Origin: Bryobacterales bacterium
GTDB lineage: Bacteria; Acidobacteriota; Terriglobia; Bryobacterales; Bryobacteraceae
Direction: 5' to 3'
Assembly: GCA_003164075.1 (NCBI GenBank)
Contig: PLRZ01000741.1
Span: forward strand, 1 to 7,801
Length of the DNA stretch: 7,801 nucleotides
A model generated the notes under the pieces. It was not told the origin of the DNA and did not search any database. It saw only the letters and a program-made list of their open reading frames with translations. Position 1 is the stretch's first letter, and each line of letters begins with the position of its first letter. The translations under genes were made by a program, and so were the position numbers. This document shows positions 1 through 7,801 of this stretch, one piece after another.

Positions 1-1248
1 TATCAGGCGGTGGTGTTCGACGAAGCCCACGAGATCGAAGACGTGGCCGGCCAGTATTTCGGCTTCTCGGTGAGCAATTACAAGCTGATGGATCTGCGGC
101 GCGATATCGGCGCGATGGGCCGCATGAAGAAATTCGGCACTCCCGAGCTGGACCGCATTCTGCAGCGACTGGAAGAGCTGACGGGACAGTTTTTCGCCCT
201 CTTCGGCGAGGGCGACAAGCGGGTCAGTTTTCAGGGCCGCGAAGCTTTTCGCGAAGCCAACGAAGAGGCTTACTCGGACCTGCTGGCGGTGCTGGAACTG
301 ATTGGGTCGAACCTGCGGTTGATGCAGAATCCGCCCGAGGAGATCCAGCCGCTGGTGCGCCGCACGGGCGAACTGCTGCTGGCGCTGCGCTTCGTGCTGG
401 AAGAGGACGACGAGCGGTACGTGTATTGGATGGAACGGCGCGGCCGGGGCTGCTTCCTGCAAGCCACACCCATTGAAGTGGCCAGCATCGTGGGGGACCG
501 GCTGTTCGGCAAAGTGGAAACCGTGGTGCTGACTTCGGCGACCCTGGCCGTGGCGGGCGGGTTCGAGTATGTGCAGAAACGGCTGGGAGTGGAAAATCCG
601 CGCACCCTGATTGTCCCCGGCCACTTCGATTATCAGAAGCAGGCGCTGTTTTACGTGCCGCAGCACTTGCCGGAGCCGCGCAGTCCGGCCTTCACGGCGG
701 CGGCGTCCGACGAAGTGATGCGCATTCTGGAGCACAGCCGCGGGCGCGCCTTCGTGCTGTTCACCAGCTATCAACAGATGCGCCTGGTCTACCAGAAAGT
801 GTCGCTGGACCTGGAGTATCCCACGCTGATGCAGGGCACCGGCCCGCGCCACGCGCTGCTGGACGAATTCCGCGCCACGCCGCACTGCGTACTGTTCGCC
901 ACCTCGGCCTTCTGGCAGGGGGTGGACGTGCCGGGTGAACAGTTGAGCTGCGTTATCATAGATAAGTTGCCCTTTGCGGTGCCCAACGACCCGGTGGTGA
1001 ATGCCCGCATCGAGAGCATTCGCCGGGCGGGGGGGAATCCATTCTACGACTACCAGATTCCGCAGGCGGCCATCGCGCTCAAGCAGGGGTTCGGACGGCT
1101 GATTCGCAGTAAGACCGACCGCGGGGTGCTGGTGCTGCTGGATAATCGCATCACCAAACAGCGGTACGGGCAAGTATTTTTCGACAGCCTGCCGGACTAC
1201 GGATTCACCACTCAATTACGGGACGTGGAGAAGTTTTTCGATGTTTGA
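1..1248 (+). CDS. dinG: DinG/XPD-family ATP-dependent DNA helicase, C-terminal part (5' end outside window)
   Basis: This is the 3' part of a superfamily 2 DNA helicase gene of the DinG/XPD (Rad3) type; 415 codons are visible and the frame is open from base 1. The window opens in motif II (VVFDEAHEIED, DEAH at visible residues 7-10). Later motifs follow in the expected order: TSATL near 178-182, the motif IV-like stretch GRAFVLFTSYQQM, motif V FWQGVDVPG (304-312) and motif VI QGFGRLIRS (362-370) with the arginine finger. Family members unwind DNA 5' to 3' using ATP in the cytoplasm, in DNA repair and R-loop or damage processing. Walker A and the iron-sulfur cysteines found in many members lie before motif II, so they are outside the window, and whether this protein carries the cluster cannot be judged. 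The stop overlaps the next start by 8 nt, so it is probably co-transcribed and translationally coupled with queD. Family assignment is firm; DinG rather than another XPD-like helicase is the likely label. Confidence 0.93.
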   Translation, partial: YQAVVFDEAHEIEDVAGQYFGFSVSNYKLMDLRRDIGAMGRMKKFGTPELDRILQRLEELTGQFFALFGEGDKRVSFQGREAFREANEEAYSDLLAVLELIGSNLRLMQNPPEEIQPLVRRTGELLLALRFVLEEDDERYVYWMERRGRGCFLQATPIEVASIVGDRLFGKVETVVLTSATLAVAGGFEYVQKRLGVENPRTLIVPGHFDYQKQALFYVPQHLPEPRSPAFTAAASDEVMRILEHSRGRAFVLFTSYQQMRLVYQKVSLDLEYPTLMQGTGPRHALLDEFRATPHCVLFATSAFWQGVDVPGEQLSCVIIDKLPFAVPNDPVVNARIESIRRAGGNPFYDYQIPQAAIALKQGFGRLIRSKTDRGVLVLLDNRITKQRYGQVFFDSLPDYGFTTQLRDVEKFFDV

Positions 1249-1612
1249 AGTGACCATAGAAGAGACTTTCGCCGCCGGCCATGCGCTGCGCAATTACCGG
1301 GGGAAGTGCGAAAACGTACACGGACACAACTACCGCTGCCAGGTGATGCTGGAAGGCGCGGAGTTGGATTCGATCGGGCTGCTGGTGGATTTCGTGGAGT
1401 TGAAGCGCGTGGTGCACGGCGTGCTGGACCGCATGGACCACCAGTGGCTCAACGAATTTCCGCCGTTCGACGTGCTGAATCCCTCGGCGGAGAACATGGC
1501 GCGGTATATCTACGAACAGGTGGCGGAGGGATTGAAGGTGCGGGACGGAGTACGGGTAGGGCTGGTGCGGCTGTGGGAGACGGACACGGCCCACGCTACC
1601 TACCGGCCGTAG
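1241..1612 (+). CDS. queD: 6-carboxytetrahydropterin synthase (QueD / PTPS family)
   Basis: The 123-aa protein has the usual length for QueD/6-pyruvoyltetrahydropterin synthase. Zinc ligands are His14 (in AAGH), His27 and His29. The catalytic Cys23 sits in the CxxxHGH arrangement (CENVHGH) typical of bacterial QueD. Asp66-His67 in MDHQWLN, the PSAEN motif (81-85) and Glu113 (LWETDTAHATY), which binds the pterin, are all present. QueD converts 7,8-dihydroneopterin triphosphate to 6-carboxy-5,6,7,8-tetrahydropterin, the second step of the route to preQ0, queuosine and other 7-deazaguanines, in the cytosol. No other queuosine gene is visible here. The ATG lies inside the last codons of the helicase gene (8-nt overlap), and the protein begins directly with the conserved FEVTIEETFAAGH strand, which supports this start. 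A PTPS homologue with another pterin role cannot be fully excluded, but the CxxxHGH form favours QueD. Confidence 0.93.
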   Translation: MFEVTIEETFAAGHALRNYRGKCENVHGHNYRCQVMLEGAELDSIGLLVDFVELKRVVHGVLDRMDHQWLNEFPPFDVLNPSAENMARYIYEQVAEGLKVRDGVRVGLVRLWETDTAHATYRP

Positions 1613-1621
1613 GGTCCTGCT

Positions 1622-1650
1622 CCTCCGCCCCCCGGGTGAGGGAGCGGAGG
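1622..1650. terminator. GC-rich hairpin between converging queD and ferredoxin genes
   Basis: A 7-bp perfect stem (CCTCCGC at 1622-1628 with GCGGAGG at 1644-1650) encloses a 15-nt loop. It starts 10 nt after the queD stop and lies 15 nt beyond the end of the converging ferredoxin gene, so it could serve both. On the plus strand a TTTT run follows only after 7 bases, and there is no T run on the minus side, so it is a weak candidate for an intrinsic terminator. Confidence 0.35.
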
Positions 1651-1664
1651 GCTGAAGTTTTCGG

Positions 1665-1925
1665 CTATTTGCCGTAGTAGGCGGCGTTTCGGGCAGTGAA
1701 GTCGGCCCATTTCTCCGGCAGATCGTCCAATGCGAAGATGGCGGAGACCGGGCAGACCGGAACGCAGGCGCCGCAATCGATGCACTCTACCGGATCGATG
1801 TAGAGCAACTCCGCTTCCGCGTAATTGGGTTCATCCTTCTTAGGATGAATGCAATCGACCGGGCAGGCGTCGACACAGGCGGTATCTTTGGTACCAATAC
1901 AGGGTTCTGCTATCACGTAAGCCAT
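1665..1925 (-). CDS. 7Fe-type dicluster ferredoxin ([3Fe-4S]/[4Fe-4S])
   Basis: This 86-aa soluble electron carrier has two cysteine clusters. The first is C9-x7-C17-x3-C21-P-x2-C25 and the second is C48-x2-C51-x2-C54-x3-C58-P. Compared with Azotobacter FdI, the position of the second cysteine in the first cluster is Thr12, the pattern of 7Fe ferredoxins. By that comparison C9, C17 and C58 should hold a [3Fe-4S] cluster, C21, C48, C51 and C54 a [4Fe-4S] cluster, and C25 would be free. The chosen start gives MAYVIAEPC, the normal N-terminus of this family. The in-frame ATG 31 codons upstream would add a non-conserved tail encoded largely by the 26-bp repeat region. No strong Shine-Dalgarno is seen. 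A weak promoter-like pair (TTGTTT 1973-1978, 17 bp, TATTTA 1950-1955, minus strand) would place its -35 inside that repeat. Redox partner unknown. Confidence 0.92.
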   Translation of the reverse strand: MAYVIAEPCIGTKDTACVDACPVDCIHPKKDEPNYAEAELLYIDPVECIDCGACVPVCPVSAIFALDDLPEKWADFTARNAAYYGK

Positions 1926-1967
1926 GGCTGTGGTTGTCCCAGGTACATATAAATAGCACAGCGGACG

Positions 1968-1993
1968 GGGAAAAACAAACGATAGTTGCAAAG
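1968..1993 (+). repeat. 26-bp direct repeat, left copy (candidate attL)
   Basis: These 26 bp are identical to 5603-5628 in the same orientation; the distinctive core is AAACGATAGTTGCAAAG. The match continues on the right as gcGGGG versus cGGGG with one extra base here. It lies 42 bp upstream of the ferredoxin start. Repeat A marks the left edge of the accessory block. A duplicated regulatory site or a dispersed genomic repeat are the alternatives. Confidence 0.85.
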
Positions 1994-2009
1994 GCGGGGT
2001 TCGGAAGGG

Positions 2010-2035
2010 CGGGGCCATTCCGGAAAACGGCCCCG
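2010..2035 (-). terminator. Strong GC hairpin after the cysteine-rich protein gene
   Basis: A 7-bp stem (CGGGGCC at 2010-2016 with GGCCCCG at 2029-2035) has a 12-nt loop that itself contains the palindrome TTCCGGAA. It begins 8 nt past the TAA of the last cargo gene in the direction of transcription, which suits an operon terminator. No T run follows directly on the minus strand, so intrinsic termination is only possible, not shown. Confidence 0.4.
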
Positions 2036-2043
2036 GTCCGAGG

Positions 2044-3267
2044 TTATTTGGCCGTGACGAGTATTACGTCATACGCATAATGGTCGCCCGCGGGCCCGCC
2101 GCCAGCGAAGGCGATCTTGCTGCGGTAGCGGAATTGGTTCCCGTAGACGTCCGTCCAGTTCGAGAACTCGTAGTGAACCGAGATCGATTGGATCCCCGCC
2201 TGCTGAAGGGTCAGCAACTCGCCCGGCTCGGAGATTCCATCGTGGTTCTTGTCTACCCAGACGAGCAGCTTCGAGAACACCGCGTCCCTCTGGTCGATCA
2301 CGCCATCGCCGTTCCCGCCGCTCGCCGGCTGATCGTAGACGGCCAGCGCGCGGAAGCCAAGCTTCGATTCCGTACCGGAGTTCGGTTGCGGCGATACGTT
2401 GCTGAACAGCTCGGTGCCGTTGTCGATTCGTCCGTTACCGTTCCGGTCCAGCGCGAGCCATCCGTCGTGGGAGCCGACGGCAGTCCACGCCATTTGGATC
2501 GGCTTCCCCTTGGCGAAAAAGTCGAACTTGACACCGTTCTGGACGTTCGTGAGGGGGAAGCCGGCACCGCTCAGGTCGACGATTATCGGGTCGCCCTCAG
2601 GCAGTGAGCAACTCCCGGTCACGCAGATGTCGCCTGGGCAACAGTCCCCGTCCCCCATACAATCGACATCACGGTCGTCACACCCTGGTCCGCCCCCGCC
2701 ATTGCCGCACGGGTCGTTGCACGAACCGTCGGACGCGATTAAGCCGCACACACCGCATGAGTTAAGGAGATAAGGACTACAGCACGTACCGGCAAAGCAT
2801 GATCCGGAGCAGCAATCGGCCCCTCCTGAGCAGGACGTCCCGGTATTGAAGCACGTCATGCAGATGCCGGCCGAATTGCACGTGAGCCCACTGCAACAAT
2901 CGTTGTCGTAATCGCATGCTTCTGTCGAGACTTGGCAGCACGTGGAGTCGGTGTATGTAGTCGTGTACTGAAACGAACCGCAAGCGGAGGCGGTACAAGA
3001 CGACGGGGCGCCATTTGCAAGTCCCTGGCAGCTTCCGCTCGCCCAATAGGAACTCGTTTGGCCAGAATCCGTGTCACTGGTACCCGTGATCACGCTGAAG
3101 GAGTCCCAGGAGTCCTTGCAGCATGTCGAATCGCAGTACTGGGATTCCGTATCGAACGATGTGATGCACTCGTGGTTCGTCTGTGCCCTGACCCTTCGTG
3201 TGTCGTGGAGAAGCACAAGGACGCCTGCCGTGAGTATCAGGATCCTGATAAGTCGGAGTTTCTGCAT
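2044..3267 (-). CDS. Exported cysteine-rich protein with C-terminal EF-hand-type calcium-binding region
   Basis: The 407-aa protein starts at the ATG that follows a perfect AGGAGG by 7 nt; an ATG 10 codons upstream lacks such a site. A signal peptide is evident (basic MQKLRLIR, hydrophobic ILILTAGVLVLL, likely cleavage after VRA at about 28). Residues 34-220 hold 31 cysteines, including six CC pairs, and at least three knottin-like units of the form C-x5-CC-x3/4-C-x4/5-C (118-136, 146-163, 203-220). No cysteine occurs after 220. Residues 226-365 match by pattern the EF-hand-like domain common in RTX-associated and other secreted bacterial proteins: DRNGNGRID (274-282), GNGDGVIDQRD (318-328) and DKNHDGISEPGE (339-350). 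The protein is probably secreted or surface-bound, disulfide-rich and calcium-binding. No RTX nonapeptides or enzyme motif are visible, and its molecular role is unknown. It is the last gene of the cargo operon, 36 nt after the preceding gene. Confidence 0.85.
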   Translation of the reverse strand: MQKLRLIRILILTAGVLVLLHDTRRVRAQTNHECITSFDTESQYCDSTCCKDSWDSFSVITGTSDTDSGQTSSYWASGSCQGLANGAPSSCTASACGSFQYTTTYTDSTCCQVSTEACDYDNDCCSGLTCNSAGICMTCFNTGTSCSGGADCCSGSCFAGTCCSPYLLNSCGVCGLIASDGSCNDPCGNGGGGPGCDDRDVDCMGDGDCCPGDICVTGSCSLPEGDPIIVDLSGAGFPLTNVQNGVKFDFFAKGKPIQMAWTAVGSHDGWLALDRNGNGRIDNGTELFSNVSPQPNSGTESKLGFRALAVYDQPASGGNGDGVIDQRDAVFSKLLVWVDKNHDGISEPGELLTLQQAGIQSISVHYEFSNWTDVYGNQFRYRSKIAFAGGGPAGDHYAYDVILVTAK

Positions 3268-3274
3268 TGCCGTT

Positions 3275-3280
3275 CCTCCT
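3275..3280 (-). promoter_or_regulatory. Ribosome binding site deciding the start of the cysteine-rich protein
   Basis: On the minus strand the perfect AGGAGG lies 7 nt before the ATG at 3267. It rules in the 407-aa form over the 417-aa form starting at 3297. Confidence 0.8.
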
Positions 3281-3303
3281 GTAACCTCTATCGCCAAAGA
3301 GAT

Positions 3304-4011
3304 CTACTTACCGTAGCCTGGCGGCCAAACGGGGAGTTTGTCGCCGGGGAAGTACCCCCTTCCCATGTGGTTGAATGTACCGGGTTTGGCCGGGTCCGGA
3401 GTCCAGTATCCCGAAGGATCCCATTTCATCCCATCGTCGAAGTAGAAGGTACCCCGGCGGACGATGCAGTTCGTTAGCTTCTCGATAGGCATGTTGTCGA
3501 CTTGGGCCGCAATCCTGTCAATGTACGCGCCGACGTCAATCAGCAGCGTTTGGTGAGGGGCAAACGAAATGGCTCCCGAGCTCGGATTCTGCGCAATGGC
3601 CTTGCCGGTTCTCCCCGAAAACGCGACGGACGACGGTATCCGTCCCAGAGTTATGTTGTATACCCGCAGGGGAGACTGGTAGCTCCCGTCTCCAGTCTCC
3701 GGGAAGGCAAGCGTGACTTGGCCAAAAGCGATGGTCTTGTCAGTTTGGTTGTAAACATGGATGGTGACATTTCGCAGCCAGTCGTCACTGGCCTCCACAG
3801 GCGTCACGGGTTGGACCCTGCCGGAGCTAACGTACAGTCCGCTTTCCACTTCCGCGCTTCCGAGCACGACTTTGGTTACGACCACCGCGTCCGTTCTGCT
3901 CTGTCTTTCGACCTCAATCCGGTTCTCCCCCGGCGGGGCCGCGGAAAGCAGAAAGGCGTATGCAATCGCGCTGGCTCCAGCCAAGCCTAGTTTTTTGAGT
4001 GACTTGAACAT
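3304..4011 (-). CDS. Exported protein of unknown family
   Basis: The 235-aa protein begins at the ATG preceded by GGAGGAG with a 4-nt spacer; an in-frame ATG at 4062 would run into the upstream gene. The N-terminus is a clear signal peptide (MFKSLKKLGLAGAS, hydrophobic IAYAFLLSA, cleavage near residues 24-26). The mature part alternates short beta-prone stretches and turns. Residues 79-103 (LRNVTIHVYNQTDKTIAFGQV) look like strands of an immunoglobulin-like beta-sandwich, which is an impression only. The C-terminal 50 residues are rich in aromatic residues, Gly and Pro (RRGTFYFDDGMKWDP, GYWTPDP, FNHMGRGYFPGD) and look like a conserved signature. There is one cysteine (C182), so unlike its downstream neighbour it is not a disulfide-rich protein. 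No catalytic motif is recognised. It sits 19 nt after the thioredoxin-like gene and 36 nt before the cysteine-rich gene, so all three should share one transcript. I do not recognise the family. Confidence 0.82.
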   Translation of the reverse strand: MFKSLKKLGLAGASAIAYAFLLSAAPPGENRIEVERQSRTDAVVVTKVVLGSAEVESGLYVSSGRVQPVTPVEASDDWLRNVTIHVYNQTDKTIAFGQVTLAFPETGDGSYQSPLRVYNITLGRIPSSVAFSGRTGKAIAQNPSSGAISFAPHQTLLIDVGAYIDRIAAQVDNMPIEKLTNCIVRRGTFYFDDGMKWDPSGYWTPDPAKPGTFNHMGRGYFPGDKLPVWPPGYGK

Positions 4012-4015
4012 ATAT

Positions 4016-4022
4016 CTCCTCC
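4016..4022 (-). promoter_or_regulatory. Ribosome binding site deciding the start of the 235-aa exported protein
   Basis: GGAGGAG on the minus strand lies 4 nt before the ATG at 4011 and between the stop of the thioredoxin-like gene and this start. It supports the shorter form carrying a clean signal peptide. Confidence 0.75.
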
Positions 4023-4030
4023 AATTCCGG

Positions 4031-4648
4031 TTATCCACGCCGCCCCCTGGCGGGTGCTTCAAGCCCGTCGCCCGGCCGAGTCAACGCAGAGGCTGGCCCC
4101 GGCCGCCCGGGCGCGCCAGCGGCGTGCCTGCCCAGTAAGGTGCTCATCACTTGCTCCTGGCCCTGGGGGTCGAGCTTCCCAACCCAGACCCTTGTTACGA
4201 TGCCACCACGGTCGACAAGAAGCATGGTCGGTGTTCCCCTTACTCCTATGCTCCCAGGCGGGGCCTGCTTGACCTGATCGATATGCACGCCCTCACTGCT
4301 AAGATACTGCTCGGCGTCGGCAATCGATTCGGGCAGCACGGCTACCATCTTCACCTTCTCGCGTGCCTCGTCTCCCAGCCGGCGGAAGAAGGGCGCACTT
4401 TCGGTGCAGAAATGGCAGTGGGTGGAGATAGCCAAGACCAAGGTCTGGCCGTTTCGGTTCCAATCGATTCCGGGAAGCCGGTCCTTCAGGCTCGTGCCAA
4501 TTGCCGCATCCGCCGCTTGCGTGGCTGTCCTCTTTCCCGCCAGCAGGCCGGGGACAAGATAGACCTTGATTAAGACGGCCGACAGCAGAACAGCGGCGCC
4601 AATAGTTGCGATGTTTGCGGTTGTTTCTATCTTGCCGGGCAAGCTCAT
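4031..4648 (-). CDS. Membrane-anchored thioredoxin-like thiol-disulfide protein (TlpA-like)
   Basis: The 205-aa protein has one N-terminal membrane segment (about residues 11-35, ANIATIGAAVLLSAVLIKVY) that should leave the rest outside the cytoplasmic membrane. A thioredoxin fold follows: strand LVLAIST, active site C78-H-F-C81, then the helix SAPFFRRL, a strand MVAVLP, and the cis-proline motif GTPTMLLVD with Pro140. These are the hallmarks of TlpA/thioredoxin-like oxidoreductases that reduce or rearrange periplasmic disulfides. The start follows GAGGAGG with a 7-nt spacer, and its ATG overlaps the stop of a 26-aa upstream ORF (ATGA). The last 30 or so residues (from GRHAAGAPGRPG) form a Gly/Pro/Ala/Arg tail that is not part of the fold. 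It is the first full gene of the cargo operon, followed by two exported proteins, one with 31 cysteines, a plausible substrate. Whether it reduces, oxidises or isomerises cannot be told from CHFC alone. Confidence 0.88.
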   Translation of the reverse strand: MSLPGKIETTANIATIGAAVLLSAVLIKVYLVPGLLAGKRTATQAADAAIGTSLKDRLPGIDWNRNGQTLVLAISTHCHFCTESAPFFRRLGDEAREKVKMVAVLPESIADAEQYLSSEGVHIDQVKQAPPGSIGVRGTPTMLLVDRGGIVTRVWVGKLDPQGQEQVMSTLLGRHAAGAPGRPGPASALTRPGDGLEAPARGRRG

Positions 4649-4725
4649 CTGCTCGCCTCCTCTTCCGCCACACTGTCAACCGGGTACCGCCGGAGCGGAG
4701 CGGTCAGCAGCAAGTACTTTTTCAT
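4645..4725 (-). CDS. 26-aa micro-ORF translationally coupled to the thioredoxin-like gene
   Basis: The ORF opens with ATGAAAAAG and encodes 26 residues (MKKYLLLTAPLRR, then PVDSVAEEEASR). Its TGA overlaps the next ATG as ATGA, a typical coupling arrangement. Its own ribosome binding site is less clear: purine-rich GAGGAGAAGAAG lies upstream but rather far, next to a 6-bp hairpin (4741-4755, CCTCTT/AAGAGG). The start resembles a truncated signal sequence. It could be a regulatory leader peptide, the stump of a decayed gene, or chance. No homologue is recognised. Confidence 0.38.
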   Translation of the reverse strand: MKKYLLLTAPLRRYPVDSVAEEEASR

Positions 4726-4821
4726 AAGAATACTTCTTCTCCTCTTGAAAAGAGGCCCCGCCATCACTCGCCGACGTGCCGGCGCGCCGGGCGGCCTCTG
4801 CACTATCGACTTACAACTAAG

Positions 4822-4850
4822 ATTGTGTGCCCGTGGAATTATCAAGTCAA
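4822..4850 (-). promoter_or_regulatory. Sigma70-like promoter of the cargo operon
   Basis: On the minus strand, TTGACT (4845-4850; five of six consensus bases) is followed by a 17-bp spacer and CACAAT (4822-4827; four of six). It is the best promoter match seen in the region. It lies about 100 bp upstream of the micro-ORF and 175 bp upstream of the thioredoxin-like gene. The leader in between contains the 12-bp palindrome CCGGCGCGCCGG near 4782-4793 and a short hairpin at 4741-4755. Confidence 0.5.
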
Positions 4851-4861
4851 GAAGAAAGCAG

Positions 4862-4879
4862 ATAAAGGGCTCTCTTTAT
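4862..4879 (-). terminator. Small AT-rich hairpin between integrase remnant and cargo promoter
   Basis: A 6-bp stem (ATAAAG/CTTTAT) with a 6-nt loop lies 16 nt past the stop of the integrase remnant. It is followed on the minus strand by a pyrimidine-rich run (CTGCTTTCTTCTT). It may insulate the cargo promoter from upstream reading. The stem is weak. Confidence 0.25.
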
Positions 4880-4895
4880 GTCGCAGTTTCTGACC

Positions 4896-5499
4896 TTATT
4901 TGCTCCACCCAAGGAACGCTAGCGAACGCCCGGCGCTTCCCCGCCTCAATCGGAGCACCGTTGGGCGCCCGTGGATCCGGAAGAACGATATCCGGGCCGA
5001 ATCACCCCCCCCACGGGCGAGATGGAAGCAGACCTCGGTCGAAGCCAGATGCCTGTGGCCGAGCAATCGTTGTAACTCCTTGGGCAGGATGCCATTACGC
5101 GCGGCTGCTGTTGCGAAGGTGTGCCGAAGAGCCTCCGCGCATACCCCCCCGCTCGATGCCGGACCGGGAGACAACCTCCAGCACGACCCGCTCAATAGAT
5201 CGGGCCGACAAACCAAAGGACTGGTGCTTACTAAACCAACTATCGAAAAGCGGCGCGATACGGGGAGTTATGGGGATCTCTCGAAGTCCGCCGGGAGCGT
5301 CGGCGTATAAGTAATGGCTCTCAGGGGCTATTCGCTCCCGAGTAAGATCCCGTAGCTCACTGACGCGTAGCCCCGTATCCAGCAGAGTCCAAATGACTCG
5401 TTTTTCGCGGAGAGTTCGACACGTACTGGCCAGCCGTTCCGCCTCGTCCTGCGTCAAGGGTCTGTGCCTGGGGGTCATAACGCATAATAGACTCCTCAT
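4896..5499 (-). pseudogene. Degenerate tyrosine recombinase (phage-type integrase), frameshifted
   Basis: Two overlapping minus-strand reading frames together give the catalytic domain of a tyrosine recombinase. The first (from 5499 or the ATG at 5478) has PLTQDEAERL and the Arg-I motif TGLRVSELRDL, and runs to about 5150. The second, ending at 4896, carries LRHTFATAAARNGI and LQRLLGHRHLASTE. They join only if one base is added in a run of seven C on the plus strand (5144-5150; G7 in the coding strand). The frameshift is not the only damage. The first His of HxxR is Glu (EALR), and the nucleophilic Tyr position reads Cys (STEVCFHL). An N-terminal core-binding domain is absent, and the 3' end past an eight-base homopolymer (5005-5012) is unlike the family. 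Intact relatives cut and rejoin att sites. This copy should be inactive. It points inward from the right-hand 26-bp repeat, as expected for an integrase next to its att site. Confidence 0.82.
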
Positions 5500-5602
5500 T
5501 TCTTAATTGCGCAAACGGCTTCCAGAAGGGGGACAAAGAAAGTGAGGTTCACCGTTCGTTATCGCACCTTCCCGGGCCGTTCCTGCCGATCCGCCCCGTT
5601 TC

Positions 5603-5628
5603 GGGAAAAACAAACGATAGTTGCAAAG
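5603..5628 (+). repeat. 26-bp direct repeat, right copy (candidate attR)
   Basis: Identical over 26 bp and in the same orientation as 1968-1993. It lies 29 bp upstream of galU and about 100 bp upstream of the integrase remnant's start. With the left copy it brackets the accessory genes. Confidence 0.85.
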
Positions 5629-5657
5629 CGGGGCGGCGGGGCACGAAACTGAAGAGG

Positions 5658-6542
5658 ATGAATGCCAAAGTGCGCAAGGCCGTTTTCCCCGCCGCCGGGT
5701 TGGGTACCCGATTCCTGCCGGCTACCAAGGCGCAGCCCAAGGAAATGCTGCCGATCGTGGACAAGCCCATCATCCAATACGGTGTGGAAGAGGCGATCCA
5801 GTCGGGGATCCAGAACATCATCATGGTCACGGGGCGCGGCAAGAGCGCCATCGAAGATCATTTCGATGTGAGCTTCGAGCTGGAGTACATGCTCGAAAAT
5901 CGCGGCAAGAAGGAGCTGCTGGCGATTGTGCGCAATATCTCCGACATGATCAACGTGTCGTACGTGCGCCAGAAGGAGGCGTTGGGACTGGGCCACGCGG
6001 TGTTGCGCGCGTCGGAACTGGTGGGCGACGAGCCGTTCGCGGTGGTGCTGGCGGACGACGTGATCGAGGCCGAGACCCCCTGCCTGCGACAGTTGCTGGA
6101 CGTGTATGGCTTCTTCGGCGCGCCGGTGCTGGCGGTGATGGAAGTGCCCCCGGAGAGCATCTCGTCCTACGGGGCGATTGACGCCGAACCGGTATCGCAC
6201 AATGGATCGAGCGACCGGGTGTATCGGATCCGCAGCCTGGTGGAAAAACCGAAGACCCAGGATGCCCCGTCGAACCTGGCGATCATTGGGCGCTACGTGC
6301 TGACGCCGGAGATTTTCGAGTCGCTGGAAGCTATCGATCCCGGGTCCGGCGGCGAGATCCAACTGACGGACGCCATGCGGCACCTGTTGCACCGCCGGCC
6401 GATTTACGCGGTGCGATTCGAGGGAACGCGCTACGACGCGGGGGATAAGCTGGGATTTCTGAAAGCCACGGTGGAGTTTGCCTTAAGGCGGGCCGACTTG
6501 GGCGGGCAGTTCCGGGAGTATTTGAAGGGGCTGAAGCTGTAG
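5658..6542 (+). CDS. galU: UTP-glucose-1-phosphate uridylyltransferase
   Basis: The 294-aa protein is of normal length for bacterial GalU, which makes UDP-glucose from UTP and glucose-1-phosphate in the cytosol for envelope polysaccharide, glycogen or trehalose and galactose metabolism. The nucleotide-binding signature AAGLGTRFLPATKAQPKEML (12-31) is intact. So are the metal-binding region LADDV (131-135, Asp133-Asp134), YGAID (171-175), VEKP (195-198), GGEIQLTDA (231-239) and GTRYDAGDKLGF (256-267). The start is slightly uncertain. The purine-rich GAAGAGG directly abuts the ATG at 5658, with no spacer. The GTG at codon 5 would have a better distance, but the encoded MNAKVRKAVFPAAG fits the usual family N-terminus. 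It is transcribed away from the accessory block and converges on fabG. If the block is an insertion, its original upstream neighbour was the ferredoxin gene. Confidence 0.96.
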   Translation: MNAKVRKAVFPAAGLGTRFLPATKAQPKEMLPIVDKPIIQYGVEEAIQSGIQNIIMVTGRGKSAIEDHFDVSFELEYMLENRGKKELLAIVRNISDMINVSYVRQKEALGLGHAVLRASELVGDEPFAVVLADDVIEAETPCLRQLLDVYGFFGAPVLAVMEVPPESISSYGAIDAEPVSHNGSSDRVYRIRSLVEKPKTQDAPSNLAIIGRYVLTPEIFESLEAIDPGSGGEIQLTDAMRHLLHRRPIYAVRFEGTRYDAGDKLGFLKATVEFALRRADLGGQFREYLKGLKL

Positions 6543-6654
6543 GAAGAAAAACTATTGGCCAGTAGAGTAGGACCGCGACGATGGCGTCGAGCGCCTCGCG
6601 CGCCAGAGTTCCGGTACCGGCGGCGCTATGGATCAGCGTAAGGGAGCGTTAGGC

Positions 6655-6868
6655 CAGAACTCCTGATGTCGCCCCGCAATTTGTGCCTCGCGGGGAAAAT
6701 AGGCTGAGCTATTCCTTTCGATGGCGAGAGCTTCGCAGGTGGGGCAGGCGGTGCCGCCTGCCCGCCCGCACTGAATTCGGCCCGCTGCTCGAATCGGATG
6801 GAGGGCAGGCGAGCACCGCCTGCCCCACCCGCGGGCTCACTGCAAATTCCACGACATCAGGAGTTCTG
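6655..6868. mobile_element. MITE-like element, 214 bp, 17-bp terminal inverted repeats
   Basis: CAGAACTCCTGATGTCG at 6655-6671 is the exact inverse complement of 6852-6868. The inverted likeness extends inward loosely (AATTTG in both arms). The interior has no credible gene but holds nested GC-rich palindromes. A related end recurs at 7739. No target-site duplication is obvious. It fills most of the 355-bp gap between converging galU and fabG; outside it, 6543-6654 shows only short GC-rich dyads without a T run. A REP/BIME-type repeat is an alternative name for the same structure. Confidence 0.7.
6738..6829. repeat. Nested GC-rich inverted repeats inside the MITE-like element
   Basis: GGTGGGGCAGGCGGTGC (6738-6754) pairs perfectly with 6813-6829. 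Each arm can instead fold locally: 6742-6751 with 6754-6763 (10 bp, 2-nt centre), and 6803-6811 with 6817-6825 (9 bp, 5-nt loop). One long stem and two short hairpins are therefore mutually exclusive structures. Between two converging genes this may also slow transcription from either side. Confidence 0.8.
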
Positions 6869-6897
6869 AACCTATTCAATCGCCAACTAACGGCTCC

Positions 6898-7632
6898 TTA
6901 CATGTACATGCCGCCGTTGATGGCCAGCACATGGCCGGTGATATAGGAGGCGTCCTCGCTGACCAGAAACTTCACCGCGGCGGCGATGTCTTCTGGCGTG
7001 CCCATGCGTCCCAGGGGCACGGAGGCGAGGATCTTCGCCTTGACTTCGTCGGGCAGCACCTTGGTCATGTCGGTGGCGATGTAACCCGGGGCAACCGCGT
7101 TGACGGTAATGTTACGCGACGCCATTTCCTGCGCCAGGGCTTTCGTGAGGCCGATCAACCCGGCCTTCGACGCGGCGTAGTTGGCCTGTCCCGCGGCGCC
7201 CGCCTGCCCCACCACGGAGGCGATATTGACGATGCGGCCCCAGCGGTTGCGCATCATGCTCGGTAACACTTGTTGCGAGCAAATGAAGGCGCCCTGCAGG
7301 TTGATCTTGAGGACCAGTTCCCAATCGGTCAGCTTCATGCGGACCGCCAGGCCGTCGCGCGTAATGCCGGCGTTATTCACCAGGACGTCGATGCGGGTTT
7401 TGTCGGCCAGCACTTTGGCGAAGCCTTCTTTGACGGATTCCGGCGAGGTCACGTCCAGATTCAAAGTCATCGCCTCGCCGCTGCAGGCGCGAATTTCCTC
7501 GGCCACAGCTTCATTGTTCTCGATTTCGGGCGATGCGACTACGATATCGAAGCCTGCGCGGCACAAGGTCAATGCAATCGACCGGCCAATTCCACGGCTC
7601 GCGCCGGTAACGAATGCAACACGATTGAACAT
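6898..7632 (-). CDS. fabG: 3-oxoacyl-[acyl-carrier-protein] reductase
   Basis: The 244-aa short-chain dehydrogenase/reductase has all FabG marks: the NADP(H)-binding glycine motif TGASRGIG (9-16), NNAG (86-89), and the catalytic tetrad Asn111, Ser139, Tyr152 and Lys156 (YAASK). APGYIATDMT (181-190) and the terminal strand GHVLAINGGMYM are typical of FabG. The enzyme reduces 3-oxoacyl-ACP to (R)-3-hydroxyacyl-ACP with NADPH in type II fatty acid synthesis, as a cytosolic tetramer. The start at 7632 follows GAGGAG with a 5-nt spacer; an out-of-frame ATG lies in the spacer. The gene stands without visible fab neighbours and converges on galU; an acpP or fabF gene could lie outside the window. 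Other SDR roles (for example acetoacetyl-CoA reductase) are possible, but the motif set and length favour FabG. Confidence 0.93.
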   Translation of the reverse strand: MFNRVAFVTGASRGIGRSIALTLCRAGFDIVVASPEIENNEAVAEEIRACSGEAMTLNLDVTSPESVKEGFAKVLADKTRIDVLVNNAGITRDGLAVRMKLTDWELVLKINLQGAFICSQQVLPSMMRNRWGRIVNIASVVGQAGAAGQANYAASKAGLIGLTKALAQEMASRNITVNAVAPGYIATDMTKVLPDEVKAKILASVPLGRMGTPEDIAAAVKFLVSEDASYITGHVLAINGGMYM

Positions 7633-7665
7633 TCCATCTCCTCAAGACTTACTGGTATTAAACTC

Positions 7666-7696
7666 ATCATAACGTAGTGCATTTTGCCGCGTCCAA
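7666..7696 (-). promoter_or_regulatory. Possible fabG promoter
   Basis: On the minus strand TATGAT (7666-7671; five of six -10 bases) lies about 34 bp before the fabG ATG. TTGGAC (7691-7696) lies 19 bp upstream of it, a wider than ideal spacer. It is the best pair seen in the short region between the gene and the repeat at 7739. Confidence 0.3.
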
Positions 7697-7738
7697 GCAC
7701 CAACGCGGCGGGGTGCTGAGACGCTTTGGGGAGGCACG

Positions 7739-7801
7739 TTCAGAACTCCCGACGTCGTGGAATTTGGGATGAGCCCGCTTTCGTGGCGCAGGCACTCCTG
7801 C
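7739..7801 (+). repeat. Second member of the MITE-like repeat family, cut by the window end
   Basis: Read on the plus strand, 7739-7778 matches the inverse complement of 6870-6831 at 35 of 40 positions (TTCAGAACTCC, then GTCGTGGAATTTG, then TGAGCCCGC). A GTGGcGCAGGC stretch then corresponds to GTGGGGCAGGC of the first element. The rest lies outside the window. Confidence 0.7.

Follow-up and report, generated by a model that had tools for sequence, protein, structure and literature searches.

We analysed a stretch of 7,801 nucleotides from a Bryobacterales bacterium (assembly GCA_003164075.1, contig PLRZ01000741.1, positions 1-7,801, forward strand; hereafter the window), in which a block of about 3.6 kb, bounded by a 26-bp direct repeat, lies between a ferredoxin gene and galU. 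The two repeat copies enclose three cargo genes and one for an integrase, each encoded on the minus strand; outside them lie the end of a dinG-type helicase gene (recognised by reading its translation), queD, the FdxA-like ferredoxin gene (minus strand), galU (plus strand) and fabG. This division agrees with the initial annotation of the DNA, according to which the repeats bracket every gene that is not housekeeping. The features that define the block and its borders are:

1665..1925, minus strand: host ferredoxin gene flanking the island, from profile matches; it also lies divergently beside galU at the empty sites of relatives
1968..1993, plus strand: left copy of the 26-bp direct repeat (exact), ferredoxin side; its outer flank is host DNA, conserved in 11 empty sites
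4949..5499, minus strand: gene for a single-domain tyrosine recombinase, spread over three frames, with Cys at the catalytic Tyr position, from PF00589 and the alignment to a close relative (P0012)
5603..5628, plus strand: right copy of the 26-bp direct repeat (exact), galU side; its outer flank is host DNA by the empty-site alignment
5658..6542, plus strand: host galU flanking the island (TIGR01099, 383.8 bits against a cut-off of 326.8)

A bounded block and its empty site

The two repeat copies are identical at 26/26 bases, as first reported, and 94% alike when extended to 31 bases; no further copy with up to three mismatches occurs within the window. Such an exact repeat is far beyond chance: none of 200 dinucleotide shuffles holds two matches to the 26-mer (mean 0.00), and the longest exact repeat in 300 first-order Markov sequences of the same make-up is 16 bases, compared with the 26 found here. 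The GC content at third codon positions is 0.62-0.74 in the island genes, 0.79-0.84 in dinG, queD, galU and fabG, and 0.68 in the ferredoxin gene.

To see the junction in other genomes, we scanned for galU, keeping the best 80 of 590, and also searched 61 genomes related to a Candidatus Solibacter metagenome-assembled genome (G001). Of these 61, 44 have galU; 30 of the loci (L224-L253) were fetched, each spanning only about 1.5 kb on either side of galU. A ferredoxin gene lies near galU in 15 of the 30, and also in L001 and L003 (L227 and L001 are one genome). The divergent ferredoxin-galU gap can be aligned in 11 distinct genomes, and all 11 are without the insert. Five loci do not enter this alignment. 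The divergent gaps of L238, L243 and L253 (217, 133 and 105 bp) are of different sequence, and in L244 and L245 the gap is wider, at 892 and 1054 bp. When the window is collapsed onto one repeat it gives a gap of 97 bp, just the compact divergent region that had been proposed, and among the relatives nine have gaps of 96-98 bp, L233 one of 101 bp and L228 one of 122 bp. The sequence on the outer side of each repeat can be aligned to the gaps of all 11 relatives, each of which carries a single, diverged copy of the site (TTGCCA in 11/11, against TTGCAA in the window). Among them is G168 (locus L226), the closest relative by galU identity (90%). None of the three cargo proteins, nor the integrase, is encoded at any of 58 galU loci (L001-L028 and L224-L253) at E 1e-3, so that cargo kept at this position without the repeats is nowhere seen among them, and a match to the thioredoxin-like cargo protein was found in none of 11 galU-bearing genomes. 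Because 11 relatives hold the empty site, the flanks are conserved and the cargo is absent from the 58 loci, the clean insertion of a bounded block between ferredoxin and galU is directly demonstrated. By comparison of the sequences, the insertion appears recent enough for the repeats to have stayed identical, while the gap itself differs among relatives.

The 122-bp gap of L228 (G228 C994) contains an extra duplicated stretch with a second copy of GGTTGCCA and an inverted GGCAAC, which an earlier event at this target could have left behind.

What kind of target is this? At up to three mismatches the 26-mer has no match in 237 family genomes, where dozens of copies would have marked it as a common dispersed repeat of the family, so it is not one; it is likewise absent from the viral contigs. 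Within the gap alignment the mean column identity is 0.84 for the repeat, 0.82 for the left flank and 0.75 for the right flank, so that the repeat is hardly better conserved than the left flank that adjoins it. The gap must hold the start signals of two divergent genes, and by its position the repeat may be promoter DNA. A scan for sigma-70 promoters gave none at the left repeat copy; by eye, a TTGTTT/TATTTA pair 17 bases apart can be read on the minus strand of the target gap. GTTRRRY is the core motif of integron recombination, and since neither strand of the 26-mer contains it we rejected an integron reading. A scan of the window for tRNA, tmRNA and Rfam families gave no match, and there is thus no tRNA or tmRNA gene at either boundary. 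Of the earlier picture of the target, then, insertion away from a tRNA gene and into an intergenic gap holds, and a bounded island in the ferredoxin-galU gap is strongly supported; its promoter nature drew no support from the scan, and the suggestion that the target is unusual has to be dropped. PMC12884075 treats intergenic sequence as one of the usual classes of target for integrases, and tRNA, tmRNA and intergenic attachment (attB) sites together account there for 56.6% of islands; for this reason the target is not remarkable.

A recombinase gene with the catalytic domain alone

The integrase gene starts 103 bp inside the right repeat. PF00589 matches both frame pieces of the gene, and the reading frame changes at two runs of C (seven at 5144-5150 and eight at 5005-5012). 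An open copy of 183 amino acids (aa), P0012, represented by seven member sequences on three contigs, is 98% identical to the window copy; read through its three frames, the latter matches at 117/118, 46/47 and 21/21 positions. The two frame changes may be an assembly error. Run-length errors are not everywhere in this sequence, since a run of seven G in dinG (1029-1035) leaves that frame intact. This copy of the island has probably lost its mobility, because the recombinase frame is broken, the nucleophile is replaced (Cys where the catalytic Tyr is expected) and no transfer genes are seen in the island.

The gene had been described as the remnant of a dead integrase. Broken it is, by the two frame changes and the Tyr-to-Cys replacement, yet the word remnant does not fit. 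The relatives of this protein form a family of about 175 aa that has the catalytic domain only: of 120 listed relatives, 91 have a length of exactly 175 aa, they share a common start, and both profile and fold matches begin at the catalytic domain. By the measure of this family, the integrase is full-length and not truncated at its N terminus. We take the catalytic residues of a tyrosine recombinase to be Arg I, Lys, His II, Arg II, His III and Tyr. Beyond the 12 nearest relatives, the 108 further listed members keep Arg I in 108/108 and His II in 107/108.

Pieces of the integrase gave no match in the 237 family genomes at E 1e-8 or 1e-6, in a search without a known positive, so that the empty answer is no evidence of absence. 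With an alignment as query and E 1e-25, the single-domain family was found in 0/396 Acidobacteriota genomes, a weak negative, at most eight candidates being scored per listed genome. A separate query, P0111, matched in 58 of 297 Acidobacteriota genomes (E 1e-15); these were rejected as ordinary recombinases, every listed open frame being at least 251 aa. No relative of P0012 was confirmed in viral contigs, and the direct repeats around the viral-contig relatives L114-L118 gave no clear island ends. Among the papers listed, no title or abstract opening describes this single-domain integrase family, which does not show that none is in print.

How the island probably arrived

The block has exact repeats at its ends, a single-copy empty site in 11 genomes, conserved outer flanks on both sides and an integrase gene inside, as expected of an integrative island. 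We consider it likely that a 3.6-kb mini-island entered the ferredoxin-galU gap through site-specific recombination, using a site some 26 bp long, and that the catalyst was the recombinase it encodes or an active ancestor of that protein. Recombination, presumably of the tyrosine-recombinase type and carried out by the single-domain protein or its then-active ancestor, would have left one copy of the site at each end of the island. Since the site is complete on both sides, each gene would keep its neighbourhood, including any regulatory sequence in the site, and the insertion would be tolerated. This is a real integrative island, ordinary in kind, whose variant feature is a single-domain recombinase of putative activity.

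Just as in the islands catalogued with TIGER/Islander (PMC12884075), there are end repeats, an integrase gene by one end, an empty site and an intergenic target; unlike those islands, this one is only 3.6 kb long and its recombinase consists of the catalytic domain alone. This last difference also sets it apart from the simple tyrosine recombinases (the Xer, integron and Brujita groups), of which a core-binding domain is a part according to PMC8138268.

Several observations weigh against an island inserted by its own recombinase. It has no core-binding domain. All 12 of its nearest relatives lack His II and nine of them lack Arg I; the catalytic Tyr is kept in 12/12. P0012 still has Arg I, Arg II, His III and Tyr, with Glu at the His II position and no Lys in the hairpin segment; neither it nor the window copy (which also lacks the Tyr) has the full catalytic set of a simple tyrosine recombinase. 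Finally, no second island with the 26-bp site or the window integrase was found in the 237 family genomes or the viral contigs. Because the nearest relatives and P0012 miss catalytic residues, it may not be the encoded protein that carried out the insertion.

If it was not, another recombinase, a host Xer or a resident integrase, would have acted in trans, with the small protein as a passenger: either a DNA-binding protein of recombinase fold or a relaxase of the MobK/TcpM/MpsA type. We regard this as rather unlikely overall. Tyrosine-recombinase-like relaxases without a core-binding domain are nevertheless a serious alternative for the protein itself: in PMC8152469, MobK, TcpM and MpsA have the catalytic domain and no core-binding or arm-binding domains, a likeness to the window family in domain make-up. 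The window recombinase differs from these relaxases in being found with a repeat-bounded insertion, and neither a mobilisation gene nor an origin of transfer (oriT) is seen. The recombinase-fold repressors MrpR/YopR and SroF have about 300 residues, unlike the window family with its 175 aa or so and its Tyr in every one of the 12 nearest relatives. Against action in trans stand the catalytic residues of the 108 further family members and the position of the gene at the island end, where integrase genes usually lie.

Two further explanations fare worse than action in trans. That the repeat came from a transposon-like or homologous duplication, without site-specific recombination, is very improbable: the cargo trio is elsewhere associated with duplication (the 415-bp copies of L104, below), but target duplications are usually shorter than 26 bp, the site is single in the empty relatives and one end of the island has an integrase gene. 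That the island is ancestral and was lost in the relatives is the least credible of all, since, even if excision would likewise leave one copy of the site, no support for it was found, 11/11 alignable relatives including G168 are empty, and the cargo does not follow host descent (the G168 trio is 39-62% identical to that of the window, though its galU is 90% identical).

Returning to insertion by the encoded recombinase or its ancestor, we may ask what it would mean for the family. A tentative and somewhat doubtful extension is that the recombinases of about 175 aa are a distinct minimal family inserting small islands at short sites without a core-binding domain, the window clade being a branch that is losing its active site or turning to DNA binding. 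Members of the family share their start and a constant length of about 175 aa, those outside the window clade have intact catalytic residues, and one member lies beside an insertion with an empty-site control. A defined 26-bp substrate is thereby available for asking whether a catalytic domain alone integrates DNA.

The cargo trio here and elsewhere

The cargo genes and the hairpin that follows them are:

2010..2035, minus strand: hairpin that directly follows the cargo operon, resembling a terminator but lacking a T run, from the DNA fold
2044..3267, minus strand: Cys-rich exported protein, 407 aa, identical to P0132
3304..4011, minus strand: exported-looking beta protein, 235 aa, identical to P0001
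4031..4648, minus strand: thioredoxin-like protein of 205 aa whose N terminus has a hydrophobic stretch (Redoxin match at E 4.9e-5, which does not reach the curated cut-off)

The three genes would form one operon. Its product is probably disulfide-dependent and either surface-bound or secreted, as suggested by the combination of an exported protein, its many Cys residues and a thioredoxin-like partner, which would probably handle the disulfides of the Cys-rich protein. P0132, also 407 aa long, occurs on 8 contigs, the longest of 15,317 bases, which is also the length of the longest P0012 contig. The 235-aa protein belongs to no Pfam or NCBIfam family; its structural model has a mean predicted local distance difference test score (pLDDT) of 79.4, and a fold search with this model against solved structures gave no match at E<=0.001. 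The PADLOC defence profiles matched none of five proteins.

The 235-aa protein has relatives in 11 of the 237 family genomes, in most cases accompanied by one or both partners and in some genomes in several copies; none was confirmed in viral contigs. Matches to all three cargo proteins are present in 8 of 19 fetched loci (L081, L083-L086 and L092-L094, of which L086 and L094 overlap), in the order thioredoxin-like, 235-aa, Cys-rich in each of the eight; in L082 the 235-aa gene precedes the thioredoxin-like gene. Among the matches listed, PF00589 is absent from the trio-bearing contigs of the cargo genomes. L100 ends in an open reading frame, some 11 kb away from the trio, that looks by eye like the N terminus of an integrase.

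In L104 (G168) the trio lies between 415-bp copies that are 98% identical (8572-8986 and 11870-12284) and contain the end of a potassium-channel-like gene. Tandem or nearby diverged duplicates of trio genes are seen in L105, L107 and L111, such as 1.77 kb at 82% in L105. In L103 (G045) a 22-bp direct repeat, 86% identical (12384-12405 and 15071-15092), flanks the trio, which may itself be a repeat-bounded mobile cassette there; one copy of this repeat is part of a terminator-type hairpin, and the gene neighbouring the trio has matches in 13 of 40 genomes, at no more than 61% identity apart from itself.

The stretch between the thioredoxin-like gene and the integrase gene (4649-4948) is non-coding and holds a sigma-70-like match at 4850-4822 on the minus strand that may be the promoter of the trio (9/12; expectation from shuffles of 4640-5680, 0.4). 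At the other end of the operon, the hairpin region 2009-2043 folds as DNA at -10.4 kcal/mol (z -2.23), and a terminator scan of the window did not call the hairpin. Outside the island, CAGAACTCCTGATGTCG is repeated around fabG (6655-6671, 6852-6868 and 7741-7757, one copy inverted and one at 88%) and looks like a small dispersed repeat.
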